In this document: positions 24,146-35,022 of the stretch, in pieces
Layout: every line of letters begins with the position of its first letter
Position numbering within the stretch: the stretch's first letter is position 1
NCBI GenBank assembly: GCA_958296045.1
Contig: CATQHT010000003.1
Span: forward strand, 259,246 to 323,245
Direction: 5' to 3'
DNA from: Rhodothermales bacterium
GTDB lineage: Bacteria; Bacteroidota; Rhodothermia; Rhodothermales; Bin80
Length of the DNA stretch: 64,000 nucleotides
The notes under the pieces: model-generated
Told to the model about the DNA's origin: nothing
Database searches by the model: none
Seen by the model: the letters and a program-made list of their open reading frames with translations, nothing else
Translations under genes and position numbers: made by a program

Positions 24146-24800
24146 TTAACCTCGTGACCAACCGCGCCGTGTCCTTCGCGCCCTTCGGCGAGTCGTATCG
24201 GCTGGGCGCCTTCATCCTGATCGACAGAGCCACGAATGCCTCCGTCGGCGTAGGCACGATCGTGTCTTCCCTCATGCGCTCAGCGAATGTCGAGCTGCGC
24301 GATTTCGACGTCGGTAGAGAAGTTCGCTCCGAATTGAAGCAGCAGCGCGCCCGGTGCCTTTGGCTGACAGGTCTCTCGGCGTCGGGGGAGTCAACGGTGG
24401 CCAATCTCTTGGAAAAGCGCCTCGCCGCCGAGGGCCGCCACACCTACCTGTTGGCTGGCGACAACGTTCGGCACGGGCTCAACCGGGATCTGGGATTCAC
24501 CGAGGCGGACCGCGTGGAGAACATCCGCTAGGCGGCCGAGGTGTCGCGTTTCATGGTTGATGCGAGACTGATCGTGATCGTGTCCTTTATCAGCCCGTTC
24601 TGGTTCGAGCGTGAGCTCGCCCGCGGTCTCTTCAAACCCGGCGAGTCAGGGAGACCTTTGTGGATGCGTCGCTGGAAGCTTGCGTGGCGCGTGAGCCGAA
24701 GGGCCTCTATGCCGAGGTGATGAGCGGCGGGATCAGGAACTTCACGGGCTTGGACAGCCCCTACGAGAAGCCCGAGCAGCCGGATCTGCTCCTCACGAGG
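24090..24800 (+). pseudogene. Dead cysNC remnant (sulfate adenylyltransferase large subunit / APS kinase)
   Basis: The start matches the C-terminal end of CysN ([36 protein letters not shown]), followed by an APS kinase domain ([10 protein letters not shown]...; [20 protein letters not shown]). It is broken in several ways: the P-loop Lys is Glu (SASGEST), LDGDN reads LAGDN, an in-frame TAG replaces an Arg codon at 24530, and a base is missing near 24640, after which [20 protein letters not shown] and NFTGLDSPYE continue in another frame. It ends abruptly near 24800 against the sulfotransferase remnant. A working copy would have made PAPS, the sulfate donor for the neighbouring sulfotransferases. 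Confidence 0.85.
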
Positions 24801-25770
24801 ATGGCGAACCCAACTGGGCGACTTGCGTCGCGGCAAGGCCGAGAGCCCCTCGAGCCACCGCGCATCGGCCAACTCCAGCCCGATGAAGTCGACAAGGCGG
24901 GTCATCTCCTTCCGGGGCAAATCGAGCAGCGACTCGAACCGCATGGAGAGAACCCGGTCGGCGGACAGCGTGTTCAGAAACGCGGTGCCCTTCTCGATCA
25001 TCCCGCTCCAGACCCAGCCAAACGACTCCACCGGAACATCGCGGGCGAGGAATCGCTTTGGGGACATCAGGCGCGCCTGTATCTGGGCGGCGACATGCAC
25101 CCACAGGCTGCTTCCCCGCCAGTTGACGTGCGAAAACGGGTCAAGCCGCAGCTTCCCCAGCATGAGCGAACTTATCGCCATCGCGCGGAAGCCGGGATGA
25201 TTGTACATGGAAATCGCGGTGTTCCGTCCGTCCCGGAAGATGTGGACGAAACGGGCATCCGGGAAGTGGCGCGCCAGGACGGGCGTCATCGGCAGTATCC
25301 CTCCGGTGCGCTCCACCCACACCTGCCTGCCGAACCGTGCCTGGAGCCATACGAACACAAAGCGGTAGTGGTCGATCAACCGATGCTTACCCCTGGCTCT
25401 CAGCGCGGGACCCAACTCGCCCCACAGCTCCTCGTGCGCGTCCGTGAGGTGGGGGAGCGTCGTGCACAGAATAGGAGGGAGTGCGTGAGCGCCGTATCGG
25501 CCCCCAGAGCCGAGGGGAAAGAGGAACTCGCCGATGGATGCGCTTTCGAGAAACGCCCGCAGCGCCCGGGTCGGCGTGTTTAACCTGCGGAATGCGGCCT
25601 CGCCGCTGCTCCTTGTCGCGCGCACGCTGCCGGGCCCCAGGTAGGCGTAACTCCGACACGCTCGGGATCTGCGGGTGCAGCCGCAACATCGCCGAAAGAA
25701 GGGTGGACCCGCATCGGCCGGTACTAACAACGAAGACCGATACCAGCGGCTTCTCGTCGTGGTCAGTCAT
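24800..25770 (-). pseudogene. Frameshifted and 3'-truncated sulfotransferase
   Basis: The ATG at 25770 starts MTDHDEKPLVSVFVVSTGRCGSTLL, holding the PAPS 5'-phosphate loop (STGRCGST), but after PSVSEL (about 25650) the matching sequence moves to another frame (YAYLGPGSV onward), which carries the 3'-phosphate motif (FRDGRNTAISMY) and the rest of the fold. The C-terminus runs into DNA antisense to the cysNC remnant, so the original 3' end is lost near 24800. The start overlaps the stop of the upstream sulfotransferase by 8 bases, so the two were once coupled. A sequencing error could explain the frameshift but not the truncation. Confidence 0.75.
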
Positions 25771-26878
25771 TCGAGTTCGGTGGTTCGTAGCCCCATTCAC
25801 GCACGGCGAATCCCCACTTCCGGTCCACCTTGTCGATCAGCGACGAATCGAACCTGTAGCGGTTCTTGCGGTAGCCGGACAAGGTCCCGAGGTATTCTGC
25901 GACGGGCTTCCGCGCCCGTTCCCAACCCGGCAATCCCAACGCCAAATAAATGCGTTCCAGGACGCCCAGCGCATCCGCCTCGATGTCCTCGAATTGCACT
26001 TCGATCAAGTTCCCCCTCGGAATCGATGCCCGGTCGCGCATGTACCGGCGGGTCATGTCAACGTAGTTGGAAAACACCGAGGCCTCGATCACGTCCCAGT
26101 CCACGTCCTGCAGCCGGTACATGGGAATCACGGTGCGGTAGAGCTTCATCGTAGAAGAGAACACGACATACGGATTGCGCACGACGAAGACGAACTTCGC
26201 GCTGGGAAATAGTCGGAGCAGATGGTCGGTCCGGCCAAGGTTGGCCGGTGTCTTGAGCACCAGCCGACGACCGTCCGAAGCCAGCGTGGCCTTGCGCAGC
26301 ACATGCAGGTAGCTGTCCGTCCACTCCCGCATCTCCGCCTCGGTCAGCCGCATGGCTCCCATCTTCGCCACGATTTCCCTCGCCCGGCCCGGAAACGAGA
26401 TATGATGCACGGACGACAGCCGGGATGCAGCCGCAAGGGCCAGCTCCTCCTCTTGGGGGAGGTCCAGAGAAACCGCAACATTGTCCATCGGGCGCTTCGC
26501 CGGAAGCCGTCCGGCGATCAGCCGATCCAGCCATCCGCGCGAGATCAGGAAGAAGGGGGCCGCGGTCGCATGAAAGGTTGACACGTACCCCAGACAGGGA
26601 TCGTGCGCCAGCAAGTTGTGAAGGTGGGTGGTGCCTGAGCGGGCAAAGCCCTGAATGAAGATCGGCGGTTCGCGGATCTCCGTCCGCGCCACTTGGCGGC
26701 CGTAGCGAAGCCTCTCTGCGAGGCGCAACGGGGCCGTAACGGCGCTCACCGCCAGTATTCCCGCCAATCGTCCCCAGTACCGCGGCTGCACGCCGCCGTA
26801 TTTGTGCACTAGACTCCACCACAGCGGGAGCGGCGCGGTCGCGAACAGATGCGGTGGTGACCTCCTGGAGCCGGCCAT
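25763..26878 (-). CDS. Sulfotransferase, intact
   Basis: 371 residues. PAPS-binding motifs are IFIQGFARSGTTHLHNLL (5'-phosphosulfate loop, about 73-90) and FVFVVRNPYVVFSSTMKLY (3'-phosphate). This arrangement is that of Sulfotransfer_3-type enzymes that sulfate hydroxyl groups of lipids, glycans or small molecules. A hydrophobic stretch near 38-55 may associate with membrane. It follows the GPP34-P450 gene by 15 bases in the same direction, so the P450 may create the hydroxyl that is sulfated; this is inference. Confidence 0.85.
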   Translation of the reverse strand: MAGSRRSPPHLFATAPLPLWWSLVHKYGGVQPRYWGRLAGILAVSAVTAPLRLAERLRYGRQVARTEIREPPIFIQGFARSGTTHLHNLLAHDPCLGYVSTFHATAAPFFLISRGWLDRLIAGRLPAKRPMDNVAVSLDLPQEEELALAAASRLSSVHHISFPGRAREIVAKMGAMRLTEAEMREWTDSYLHVLRKATLASDGRRLVLKTPANLGRTDHLLRLFPSAKFVFVVRNPYVVFSSTMKLYRTVIPMYRLQDVDWDVIEASVFSNYVDMTRRYMRDRASIPRGNLIEVQFEDIEADALGVLERIYLALGLPGWERARKPVAEYLGTLSGYRKNRYRFDSSLIDKVDRKWGFAVREWGYEPPNSND

Positions 26879-26893: not shown

Positions 26894-28972
26894 TTATTGG
26901 CGGGGAGTAACCATGATCTTGAAGCTGGACTTCGGGGCTGCCAGGTGGGAATAGCCCATCTTCAGCCGGTAGCTCCGTGGATGCATGGTGATGTCCGCCC
27001 GGTGCAACATGGTCGCGAGCGTCAGCGCTAAGCTGACCTCCATGAAGCCGCTTCCGAGGCAACGGTGCGTGCCCAAGCCGAAGGGCGCGTAAACCCCCGG
27101 CTGCCTGTGTTCGGCGCGTTCCGGCCCGTAGCGCTCAATGTCGAACCGGTGCGGCTCAGGAAAGTACTCTGGCAGGACATGCGGGACCGTGTTGGCAAAC
27201 ATGACCGTCGTGCCAGCCGGAATCGCATACCCCTCGAACTCGAAGGCGTTGACCACCGTGCGCACCAGTGCCGGCGCAACCTGATAAAGCCGCAAGGTCT
27301 CCATCCCCACGCGGTGGGTGACGTCCATCCCGCGAAGTTTCCCAGCCGTGGGACCACCGTCGGCAAATAGTGCGTCTGCTTCGCGGATCACGCGCGTCAT
27401 CGTGCCCGGGTGCTTGAGCAGCTCGTACAGCATGCACGTAGCGACGCTCGCCGCGGTGTGCAGACCCGCGGCAAAGGGTCCGATACAGGCAGACATCAGT
27501 TCCGTTTCGGGCATGAACTGCGGATCGGCCTGGTGGAGTGCCAGGACATCGTCGATTAGATCCGGCGCATTGGCCTCGCGGTGTTCGGCCTCGCGTGCCT
27601 TCAGAAGCTGCTCGCACAGGGCTTCCAGCCCAGCGCGCGCGCGGCGCATGCGCGGCGTGCGCATCACGAACCGTGGACGGCGCATCATCATGACAGCGAT
27701 CGCCCCGTCGAGGTAGGTGACGAGGTCTTCCATGTATTCGTCCGCACGGACACTGGTACAAAGCACTCCGATCTGTTTGCCAATGACTCGTTGCAGGATC
27801 GGCATGGCCGCCATCGGTGTTCGCACGGGCAGATCGTCGATCTCGCGAACCACGGTCCCGACGGCGTCATCGATGCGGTCGAGGAAATAGCTCTTCGAAT
27901 AGCCGTTTCTCAGGACCTTTCGCAGGCGGAAATGCTCCGCGCCGTCCATCCCCAGGATGAACCGGTGGGCAGCTAGCGCCCGTGTCATGCTGGCGTAGAA
28001 ATCGACGTTGCGGAGGTGCTGTCTGCCGTGGCGCTGGATGAATGTGTTGGCTTCCGGCCCCGCGAGGACCGTGAAGGCATGCGAAAACGCACGGACACGG
28101 AAGACGGGGCCCTTCTCCCGGTATTGCCGGGCGAGGTAGGGTATCGGGTCTCCCAACATGCGGAACGCGTTTCCGACGATCGGCAGTCCACCCCCGTCGG
28201 CGAGGGGTATGGCGTCCAGCGCCCGAGCCCGAGCCGCCCGGGACCTTAGCGTCGGCCGCCGCCCATGAACGGACTCGACACGGGGAACGCCCGCCTGGCG
28301 TATCGCTGCCAAGACCGTCCGACCGATCAGTTCCATCTTGCAGATGAGTTCGATTCGGTCCCGGACCTCCGTCATTTCCCCAGGTGAGAGCAGCCGTCCG
28401 AAGATCCCACAGGCGTTCACGAGCGCGATCAACATAACATCCCGGGGGTCTGGAATCTCCTCCGAGAAGAGAACGGTCATAACGCGCAGTTCGACTTCAC
28501 GACCGGCCTCGCCGCCCACCTGTGGATACCGGCGCGAGCGGACGACCCTGTGCGCAACCGAAAGCAGGCCCCCGGTCTCCCGCTCCAGTATGCCCTTCTC
28601 GACCAGACGGTCGAGAGCATCCCTCCGCACTTGGCGCGCATGCGCGGGCTCGGCCAAGCGTTCAATCCAGTAGGCCGTGTCCCGGGTCTCGGCGGCCCGA
28701 GCGATCAATCGTAGGCCGGGATCAAGTAAATCGTCACTGATCGGGGTCGAATCGACCAGGAAGAGGCGCTCAAGATCGGTGTCGATGCGATTCTCCAGCG
28801 CTAGGTCCAGAAGCACGGCTCCAGCGAGGGCGCACCGCAGGGATCGCTCTGGAACCGGGGCGAGTGCGCCGGTGTCCTTGTCAAGCAGAAGGAGAAGCAG
28901 TTCTTCGGCGAATCTGAGCCCCGGACGCATCTGCTCCGCATTCTTGGGCAACGGCATCCAAGCGGCACTCAT
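26894..28972 (-). CDS. GPP34 domain-cytochrome P450 fusion
   Basis: 692 residues. About residues 18-235 match the GPP34 (GOLPH3-like) domain: LRFAEELLLLLLDKDTGAL, then the helical repeats with LDRLVEKGILERE. In eukaryotes this domain binds phosphoinositides and peripheral membranes. About 260-692 form a cytochrome P450: I-helix FAAGLHTAASV (the usual acid before Thr is His), ExxR in GMETLRLYQ, and the heme loop FGLGTHRCLG with Cys638. The fusion would place the oxygenase at a membrane and suggests a lipid substrate. No redox partner gene is adjacent. Codon use is GC-rich compared with neighbours, consistent with transfer. Confidence 0.88.
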   Translation of the reverse strand: MSAAWMPLPKNAEQMRPGLRFAEELLLLLLDKDTGALAPVPERSLRCALAGAVLLDLALENRIDTDLERLFLVDSTPISDDLLDPGLRLIARAAETRDTAYWIERLAEPAHARQVRRDALDRLVEKGILERETGGLLSVAHRVVRSRRYPQVGGEAGREVELRVMTVLFSEEIPDPRDVMLIALVNACGIFGRLLSPGEMTEVRDRIELICKMELIGRTVLAAIRQAGVPRVESVHGRRPTLRSRAARARALDAIPLADGGGLPIVGNAFRMLGDPIPYLARQYREKGPVFRVRAFSHAFTVLAGPEANTFIQRHGRQHLRNVDFYASMTRALAAHRFILGMDGAEHFRLRKVLRNGYSKSYFLDRIDDAVGTVVREIDDLPVRTPMAAMPILQRVIGKQIGVLCTSVRADEYMEDLVTYLDGAIAVMMMRRPRFVMRTPRMRRARAGLEALCEQLLKAREAEHREANAPDLIDDVLALHQADPQFMPETELMSACIGPFAAGLHTAASVATCMLYELLKHPGTMTRVIREADALFADGGPTAGKLRGMDVTHRVGMETLRLYQVAPALVRTVVNAFEFEGYAIPAGTTVMFANTVPHVLPEYFPEPHRFDIERYGPERAEHRQPGVYAPFGLGTHRCLGSGFMEVSLALTLATMLHRADITMHPRSYRLKMGYSHLAAPKSSFKIMVTPRQ

Positions 28973-32346: not shown

Positions 32347-35022
32347 CTACCCGGTAATCACTCAAGCAGCTTGACAACGAGCCCTCAAGGTGCATAGGGC
32401 GGGCAGATCTTGGCCCTTAGCCACGCGGTTACCCGACAAGAAAAGCATAGCCCTCGTAGCGGGAGGCCTGCGCTTCGCGCTGGAGGTGAATGTTACGCTG
32501 TTCTAAGTGGTAGATGCGAAGGGTCAAGGCCATTCGCGTAGCGAGCGTGAGTTAAGGGTGTATGCGCCGACTGCGACGGGCACGTATATCCCCCTCGCTT
32601 TGCGGGCATGCACCTTGCGGAGCGTGCGGTGAGCGAAACCGTTGAGATTGCCGAGCCTACGCCATGCGCTATGGTGGCTGGCGCTCCACAAGGTCGTAAA
32701 TCGCTCCGAGTTCTTCGTAGGCTATGGCGCGCATCTGCAGACTTGCGTACCCACGCCACATGATTTCGTGCCCAGGCGGCGGGTCGTGCTTTCGGTTCAT
32801 GTAGCCGCCCATCATCGCCATCAACAAAATTCCCGAGGTGAGGTCCTTGAGTTCGGGAAGGTCGTAATTGCGGGCATAGACCCGCAACATATGCATCTCC
32901 GCGTCCGTGAAAATCACTTCCGCGTCCATGCTGGCAGTTACACGCCCCAACAGCGTCATGAGCATGAGCCGCCAGGACGTAACGATATACAGCGTTATTA
33001 CCCGGTGCAGGTTCTCTGCCTGCTGCATGCGCAGCTTTTCGACGCGGCAACCCGTCTTGAGTACCCGAAAGGTGTCCTCCACGCGCCAGCGCAGGGTGTA
33101 GTATTCCAGTATCTGCTCTGCCTCCTGTAGTGAGGTAACCTCCACGGTGGTTAGCAGAAACCACTCAATCCGATCTGCACCTTTGGGCGGTGCTATCTCA
33201 CGAACGTGGACCGCGGAGACCTTCACGGGATCTTCGGCAAACCCGCCTGTTGCTGGCAGCCTCACTTGGCGAAAACGCACCTCCATGCGTGCATTACGCT
33301 TCGGACGGCCCTTGTGCGTGATCCGACCAGACTTCGCCCGAAGACTCAGACGCTCTACCAAGAGCTCCAGCACACCGGCAGCAGGTCCACGGCGCATGGC
33401 TTTAAACAGGCGATCATGGTTCTTACCCAGATTCCGATCGTGTTTGGCCCGAATCAGCACATCGGTCCGCTTCAAACTGCGCTGCGCCGCAAAGATCTCG
33501 AATGCATCCGCTTCCCGGTCCATCACGCTAAGCACGCGCGTCTTGCGCGGCAGCGTCTGTGCAGCCTCATCTATGTCGCGAAGCCCGTCAATCCATTGAT
33601 GCGTCGTGGTTTGCCCTTCCTTTTTTCTGTACGAACACCGTAATACTCCCAAGGGCAATCCCTCGTCGTTCAACGCCAGGGTCGCGTGCAGATGTACGCC
33701 GCGCGCCTGTGCCGTGGTCTGGTTACTACCGATTACTTCCAATCCGTCGCACTGCGGACGTGTGCTGTAACTAATGTCTGTACCATCCTGCACGCACAGC
33801 ACCGTTTTCTGGGTGCGCATCCGCTCAATGGTCCGCTGCCGGTGCGGCGCCAGTATCTTCGCAGGTGTGATGCCGAACCTATCGGCCTTCTCGATGAATC
33901 GCCAATATCCCCTTACAGCAGCTAAGTCTCGGTTAGGAACCGTGGTTACGGGCTTTCCCATCGTTTTTGCTACTAGTGCCGCGCTCTTTACCAGACGGGC
34001 GGTGCGCCGAATATGGCCCAACGCTGCACCGCCGAATTCCTGTTCCGCCCAAGAGTCGCTCGCCAGCCCAGCGCCCACCTCCAGCCGGGGTCGCAATTCC
34101 ACATGCGGTACGCCCAGCCGATCGCGCCACGCAGGATCCAGTTCATAGGCGAATACCTTCTTCCGTGAACGCTTTCCCACGCCGCTCGGTGCATGCCGAC
34201 CGCGCCCCTGGGTGAGACCTAAGTATTGGAAGCCTGCTGCCTTGAAACACGTACCCTCGTAACGTGGACACACGAAGGTCTCTACCACGTAAGGTACATA
34301 CTTATACCGGGCCATGAAGTCGGAGGACAATCGCCGAAACACGCGACCCAGCACGAAGCTCGCCAGATTCTTGCACCGAACACTTGGACGAATCAGAAAA
34401 CGACTCAGGTTCACTACGCGCTTAAGATGGCCGCTGCGCTGCTCATGACTCCAGGCCATCCACCGGTCCCGCGCCCTGAGATAAAGCGCAGCGGCAGAGA
34501 AACCGACCGCCCCCAGATAACCGTGGGCGCTCTTAATTAGGTAGCGCATTTGTGCTCCCGCAAAGGTGGTCACCCCCCGCGGATGCTCTTCGTCCATAAG
34601 CGTATTCCAGATGGCGCGATCTTGTGCGCTGTCTACTCGGACGATCTCGAAATCCTCGATCTCGCGCACATCAGCCGGAACGTCCACCGCCTCTGGTACC
34701 GGTTTACCCAATAGCCGTGGCTTGGTGATTTGAAGCTTCACCTGTGGAGGGGGTAAAGCAATCTGCTCTTCAGAATGCAGCACCCTAAGGGCCTTCATGC
34801 AGCCCGCCAGCCGCTTCTCGCCACGTGCATCGACCAAGCGGAATTGCTCGCACACCATACCCGCGAGCGCACGCCGACTCTTATCACGGTGCGCCGCTAC
34901 CGTAGCCGACACCTCCGGCACGGCTCTGCGAAGCGTTTCCAAGATCCCGAGTGGCCCCTGCATGCCCGTAAGGTAACGGACACAAACGTAGTTGTTAAGT
35001 CGATTACTAGACGAAGGGGGAG
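32347..35022 (-). mobile_element. IS4-type element with DruA-domain transposase (2676 bp)
   Basis: Inserted in the IS256-like remnant; GCCTAGGC occurs at 32339-32346 and 35023-35030 and is the likely 8-bp target duplication. The ends (CTACCCGG and inverted CTCCCCCT, with an inner CTTgACAAC match) are only weakly inverted-repeated. The boundaries come from where similarity to the interrupted element stops and resumes. It carries one gene and about 320 bases downstream of it without a supported gene. Confidence 0.75.
32669..34963 (-). CDS. IS4-type transposase fused to an N-terminal DruA (DUF4338) domain
   Basis: 764 residues. About 118-285 match DUF4338, the family of Druantia protein DruA: MRYLIKSAHGYLGAVGFSAA, RARDRWMAWSHEQR, VNLSRFLIRPSVRCKNLAS, VETFVCPRYEGTCFKAAG and TQGRGRH. 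About 300-410 is a Tn5-type DNA-binding domain (WAEQEFGGAALGHIRRTARL), and about 410-720 a DDE domain with VQDGTDISY, MDREADAFEIF and the exact Y-2-R-3-E-6-K signature of IS4 (YTLRWRVEDTFRVLK). Such fusions occur in known IS4-like transposases. The gene is intact. Confidence 0.9.
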   Translation of the reverse strand: MQGPLGILETLRRAVPEVSATVAAHRDKSRRALAGMVCEQFRLVDARGEKRLAGCMKALRVLHSEEQIALPPPQVKLQITKPRLLGKPVPEAVDVPADVREIEDFEIVRVDSAQDRAIWNTLMDEEHPRGVTTFAGAQMRYLIKSAHGYLGAVGFSAAALYLRARDRWMAWSHEQRSGHLKRVVNLSRFLIRPSVRCKNLASFVLGRVFRRLSSDFMARYKYVPYVVETFVCPRYEGTCFKAAGFQYLGLTQGRGRHAPSGVGKRSRKKVFAYELDPAWRDRLGVPHVELRPRLEVGAGLASDSWAEQEFGGAALGHIRRTARLVKSAALVAKTMGKPVTTVPNRDLAAVRGYWRFIEKADRFGITPAKILAPHRQRTIERMRTQKTVLCVQDGTDISYSTRPQCDGLEVIGSNQTTAQARGVHLHATLALNDEGLPLGVLRCSYRKKEGQTTTHQWIDGLRDIDEAAQTLPRKTRVLSVMDREADAFEIFAAQRSLKRTDVLIRAKHDRNLGKNHDRLFKAMRRGPAAGVLELLVERLSLRAKSGRITHKGRPKRNARMEVRFRQVRLPATGGFAEDPVKVSAVHVREIAPPKGADRIEWFLLTTVEVTSLQEAEQILEYYTLRWRVEDTFRVLKTGCRVEKLRMQQAENLHRVITLYIVTSWRLMLMTLLGRVTASMDAEVIFTDAEMHMLRVYARNYDLPELKDLTSGILLMAMMGGYMNRKHDPPPGHEIMWRGYASLQMRAIAYEELGAIYDLVERQPP

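Follow-up and report, generated by a model that had tools for sequence, protein, structure and literature searches.

The locus described here raises the question of why a bacterium would carry a GOLPH3-like (GPP34) domain in front of a cytochrome P450 and which reaction such a protein would serve. Within the window, i.e., the whole analysed stretch of 64,000 nucleotides from a Rhodothermales bacterium, the protein is encoded on the minus strand by a single unbroken open reading frame of 692 amino acids (26894-28972; ATG at 28972, stop at 26894). Pfam profile searches placed both of its domains far above their cut-offs, with GPP34 (PF05719, residues 22-226, 28295-28909) reaching 125.4 bits versus a curated cut-off of 29.1 (E=3.9e-36) and p450 (PF00067, residues 262-670, 26963-28189) reaching 178 bits versus 23 (E=4.6e-52). 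The linker in between (residues 227-261, 28190-28294) is predicted with low confidence (pLDDT <50 at residues 230-243) and is gap-rich in the family, and the AlphaFold model of the entire fusion protein has a mean pLDDT of 81.6 and a pTM of 0.66. The P450 domain possesses the heme-ligand Cys638 (27059-27061) and an ExxR motif (residues 558-561, 27290-27301), whereby Cys638, E558 and R561 were found to be invariant in 91/91 non-redundant relatives. Amongst 62 divergent representatives, p450 was identified in all 62 and GPP34 in 61, a few of the GPP34 domains having lost the RIDTD motif; as 61 of these 62 share both domains, chance, an assembly error or a gene-calling error is excluded as the origin of the fusion. 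An earlier note, made from the DNA letters, had called a GOLPH3-like domain ahead of a complete P450 with Cys638 and had proposed an architecture search for PF05719 with PF00067 and structure prediction as checks, naming a GPP34 call that fails a profile search, or homologues that are always separate genes, as findings that would speak against it. Profiles, fold and invariant residues confirm this call, the GPP34 domain passes profile and fold searches alike, and its homologues are nearly always fused. Two Chloroflexota P450s with 48-49% identity to the window P450 (L133 10016-11437 and L134 3486-4907) have no GPP34 in their locus, and two further loci carry two fusion genes each, adjacent in L141 and with one gene between them in L162. 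Each half of the protein belongs to a known family. What is undescribed, as far as the open literature was searched, is that the two are joined, that the joined form is conserved across phyla and apparently restricted to sponges, and that it stands in a lipid-tailoring context. No description of GPP34 together with a P450 was found in the open papers searched.

When modelled by itself from an alignment of 89 rows, the N-terminal part reached a pLDDT of 90, and its predicted fold matches GOLPH3 (Z 20.4, 2.6 Å over 196 residues) and Vps74 (Z 18.8), with the best unrelated chain at a Z of only 3.6. For GOLPH3, residues W81, R90, R171 and R174 were reported to contact PI4P, and mutation of R90 largely abolishes its Golgi localisation (PMC13408441). 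The alignment indicates that W81 is not kept in the fusion family and that R90 aligns with Ala50 of the window protein, Ala being present in 77 of the 89 family rows, while R171 and R174 align with R113 and R116, which are not conserved across the family. The window protein hence does not hold the full set of four contacts, as W81 and R90 are missing, and considering this loss of two out of four, docking probably does not proceed via PI4P. A hydrophobic hairpin locates to positions 136-139, where the family has mostly F/L, W/L, S/G and L and the window protein L-L-S-V. The peak 19-residue hydropathy of the window protein amounts to only 1.7, and therefore no obvious transmembrane helix competes as anchor. 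The best reading of these sequence features is that docking of GPP34 would be PI4P-independent and led by the hairpin. The suggestion of the earlier note that the oxygenase is held at a membrane or fed a lipid endures in part: the neighbouring genes described below agree with a function on lipids or at a membrane, but two of the four GOLPH3 PI4P contacts are lost. Next to the P450 fusions, a second kind of GPP34-redox-enzyme fusion was observed in genome G093 (L178 1-2865, minus strand), where GPP34 lies N-terminal to a formate-dehydrogenase-like molybdopterin oxidoreductase. The function of bacterial GPP34 is apparently unreported in the open literature searched, and its conserved joining to an enzyme class opens a direct way to study it.

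Structural comparison of the P450 domain revealed CYP46A1 (Z 37.2, 417 residues), CYP51 (Z 37.0) and BM3 (Z 36.1) as matches, and the closest PDB sequences are those of CYP51 (E=2.5e-31, about 23% identity), with terpene oxygenases also amongst the sequence neighbours. In the I-helix (AAGLHTA), His505 occupies the acid position and Thr506 the alcohol position (27455-27460), and the I-helix His of bacterial CYP51 aligns with His505. The His noticed by the earlier note is hence real, and it is unusual; the argument for a change in oxygen chemistry is weaker than the note put it, as His-Thr is the normal CYP51 pair and Asp or Glu takes this position in related subclades. As a consequence of this CYP51 pattern, His505 is considered unusual but not new chemistry, and the idea of a chemically unprecedented His was rejected. 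A tree of 91 rows, built by a quick method whose branch support is indicative only, divides the family into clade A (42 rows, including the window protein) and clade B (49 rows). Clade A shows D-T in 21 rows, H-T in 15, E-T in five and H-N in one, and all 49 rows of clade B have a Tyr together with a one-residue deletion at this position, the Cys and ExxR residues still being invariant. The clade B I-helix, devoid of acid and alcohol, is stranger than that of the window protein. Together the two clades offer two natural I-helix experiments, namely His, Asp and Glu variants in clade A and the absence of both residues in clade B. It is possible, though we would put it below even chances, that clade B enzymes (the window protein not included) are isomerases, hydroperoxide-using or non-catalytic P450s rather than monooxygenases; the absence of acid and alcohol in 49/49 rows with Cys and ExxR invariant points that way, but loss of the acid-alcohol pair in P450s does not always abolish oxygen chemistry.

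The gene neighbourhood gives the context in which a substrate may be sought. Fifteen bp downstream of the fusion and on the same strand, a sulfotransferase of 371 amino acids is encoded (25763-26878, minus strand; PF13469, E=1.3e-35), followed by a second sulfotransferase with a broken frame (24528-25800, minus strand), PF13469 pieces of which lie in two frames: ORF 25387-25800 contains the start with the P-loop, ORF 24528-25730 the rest. The break reflects either decay or an assembly error. The family of the 371-residue protein adjoins 9 of the 42 clade A fusions, and within five genes of these fusions two sulfotransferase families are found in 12/42 and an acyltransferase in 6/42. Sulfotransferase neighbours accompany 11 of 16 clade A fusions with a His-type I-helix versus one of the 26 others, a difference that looks strong in raw counts; as the tree offers just two independent pairs, however, the link between His and sulfotransferase is not significant after allowing for kinship. 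Clade B fusions adjoin an RND pump (31/49), a KshA-like Rieske oxygenase (27/49), a membrane-fusion protein (26/49), an outer-membrane channel (18/49), a sterol methyltransferase (17/49) and a flavin oxidoreductase (13/49). The solved structure nearest to the Rieske neighbour in the PDB is 3-ketosteroid 9alpha-hydroxylase (E=6e-27), with a weak SdmA match only in NCBIfam; the methyltransferase carries a sterol-methyltransferase C-terminal domain (E=6.7e-19), its nearest PDB chains being other methyltransferases. In loci such as L142, L166, L176 and L177, the fusion recurs with an RND tripartite pump, the KshA-like Rieske protein and the sterol methyltransferase, often joined by the flavin oxidoreductase. 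No gene for a redox partner was identified near the fusion. Elsewhere in the window (32669-34963, minus strand), a DruA domain (Druantia defence family) and a DDE transposase of the Tn5 type share one ORF.

The genome from which the window derives (4.78 Mb) yields exactly two P450 and two GPP34 matches, which are the same two fused genes. The second of them locates to another contig and is 51% identical; it occupies L051 8402-12241 (G000:C2) and is followed by an ecdysteroid-kinase-like (EcKL/APH) gene on the opposite strand. Amongst 59 related genomes, 18 have GPP34 above the cut-off and 17 of these carry a long frame aligning over both domains, the exception being G040 with GPP34 pieces at contig ends and no P450. 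In 395 genomes sampled evenly over the phylum, the full-length fusion was confined to two families of a single order, one of them that of the window; elsewhere in the phylum, GPP34 mostly occurs as a stand-alone protein of 220-340 amino acids, with no P450 found in the short loci examined. Neither did 72,556 plasmid records contain a full-length fusion. Searches of the window genome gave no squalene/oxidosqualene cyclase match, and with it no sign of the sterol synthesis pathway expected around a CYP51; neither a KshA-like Rieske protein nor Sterol_MT_C was matched, the latter search giving no match in any control either; as a consequence, a sterol substrate would have to be imported from the host or another symbiont. 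Six related genomes (G008, G010, G012, G013, G014 and G029), all of which carry the fusion, have a strong cyclase match, and in G012 and G029 the cyclase has a separate P450 nearby that is much more distant in sequence. Since this separate P450 adjoins the cyclase there, the idea that the fusion represents the CYP51 reported from sponge sterol clusters was rejected. The oxidosqualene/hopene-type cyclase matches of these six genomes (L069-L074) mostly fall in frames of about 1160-1180 amino acids, perhaps an epoxidase-cyclase fusion as described for a sponge symbiont (PMC7074536).

A scan of 84,980 species, one genome per species, returned no match with the single window protein as query and 355 relatives with the family alignment, the best 80 of which were retained. 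Judged by record titles, 66 of these best 80 out of 355 bear the names of sponge-symbiont MAG sets, i.e., 23 of jk18, three of p16, 22 with RHO/COS/CAR/APA prefixes and 18 of SB0; the other 14 comprise eight OX/OY chromosome-level MAGs and six further records. The jk18 set stems from Caribbean Ircinia (PMC9531527), the p16 set probably consists of sponge MAGs, the RHO/COS/CAR/APA prefixes would, going by the names, denote sponge species of PMC8163846, and SB0 is taken to be a set of Ircinia ramosa MAGs. Many unrelated fusion bearers appear to live inside marine sponges, and a sponge is the presumed host of the window bacterium. The record titles span at least seven phyla (Gemmatimonadota, Pseudomonadota, Acidobacteriota, Rhodothermota/Bacteroidota, Chloroflexota, Nitrospirota and Latescibacterota). 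A Gemmatimonadaceae protein shares 77% identity with the window protein, whose own genome belongs to the Rhodothermales, and on the starred branches of the tree at least 11 label changes for Pseudomonadota and at least seven for Gemmatimonadota are required. Nine rows on contigs >2.6 Mb from three phyla need four label changes versus two as the least possible. Transfer of the fusion across phyla is likely, and some cases, on short contigs such as L100, may be binning errors.

Taking together the fusion, folds, catalytic residues, neighbourhood and conservation, a model can be suggested of how the enzyme docks, what kind of substrate it takes, which reaction it performs and in what order the steps run. 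It assumes that the GOLPH3-like domain attaches the protein to the bacterial inner membrane at its inner face, mainly by its hydrophobic beta-hairpin and not by PI4P, and would replace the N-terminal membrane anchor which eukaryotic sterol P450s carry. The P450 would then hydroxylate a sterol- or terpenoid-like lipid taken out of the bilayer, using ordinary O2 activation, whereby His505 and Thr506 may relay protons as in CYP51. Subsequently, the adjacent sulfotransferase would sulfate the hydroxyl thus formed. The clade B enzyme, in altered form, would work with the Rieske oxygenase and the sterol methyltransferase, the RND pump exporting the product. That the window fusion is a membrane-docked monooxygenase acting on a sterol/terpenoid-type lipid, with sulfation following, is put at even chances.

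Two rival explanations bear on this model, one concerning the substrate and the other the docking domain. The same docked P450 may act on a different membrane lipid, i.e., a fatty acid, acyl-amino acid, carotenoid or quinone, with the sulfotransferase and acyltransferase making an envelope sulfo- or acyl-lipid. This somewhat unlikely alternative would account for a window genome devoid of cyclase, KshA and sterol-methyltransferase matches, for the structural proximity of the fatty-acid hydroxylase P450 BM3 (Z 36, almost as near) and for the absence of any tie of clade A to sterol genes, but it has to be reconciled with CYP51 ranking first amongst the sequence neighbours, with the terpene oxygenases found there as well, and with the sterol-methyltransferase and KshA-like genes that adjoin clade B. 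Alternatively, GPP34 would be no membrane anchor at all but a protein adaptor tying the P450 to a redox partner, the sulfotransferase or the pump, much as GOLPH3 does for glycosyltransferase tails. In GOLPH3, client tails bind in the groove that faces the membrane (PMC13408441), some of the contacts to PI4P are missing here, and the molybdoenzyme that carries GPP34 in a relative has no obvious lipid substrate; the hydrophobic hairpin, still present in most of the family, speaks against an adaptor, which is considered unlikely. A bilayer-docked lipid monooxygenase is the preferred reading of the window protein. Extended to the family, it leads to a tentative and rather improbable proposition, namely a multi-phylum, sponge-specific family in which a GOLPH3-type module makes the P450 a bilayer-docked oxidase tailoring host sterols, with one clade having abandoned the O2-activating pair for other chemistry. 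If this holds true, some of the oxidised, alkylated and sulfated sterols that are attributed to sponges would be products of these enzymes.

Gene clusters for sterols and functional sterol methyltransferases are known from sponge symbionts (PMC9531527, PMC10070321). The question of which organisms make the unusual sponge sterols, some of which serve as fossil biomarkers, is raised in PMC10070321; the fusion family provides testable genes for their origin in many symbiont phyla. The Ircinia and Melophlus symbiont clusters resemble the fusion in habitat and in patchy spread over phyla but, according to PMC9531527 and PMC7074536, contain a separate CYP51-type gene with a cyclase and a reductase, and the passages searched in these two papers do not mention a GPP34 fusion. 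With GOLPH3 and Vps74 the window protein shares the fold, a hydrophobic beta-hairpin at the aligned place and R113/R116 as equivalents of R171/R174, whereas its GPP34 domain is fused to an enzyme, lacks W81 and R90 and stands outside a COPI or Golgi context. CYP46A1, a cholesterol 24-hydroxylase, is the top structural match, yet it is a eukaryotic P450 of about 18-19% identity, and the fold alone does not transfer function. Sterol 14alpha-demethylase CYP51 is alike in nearest PDB sequences, a Z of 37 and the I-helix His-Thr pair, and differs by an identity of about 23% and by the window genome having no sterol cyclase match. The CYP51-ferredoxin of M. capsulatus, finally, is a bacterial P450 fusion too, in which the partner is a ferredoxin, whereas here it is an N-terminal GPP34 domain.
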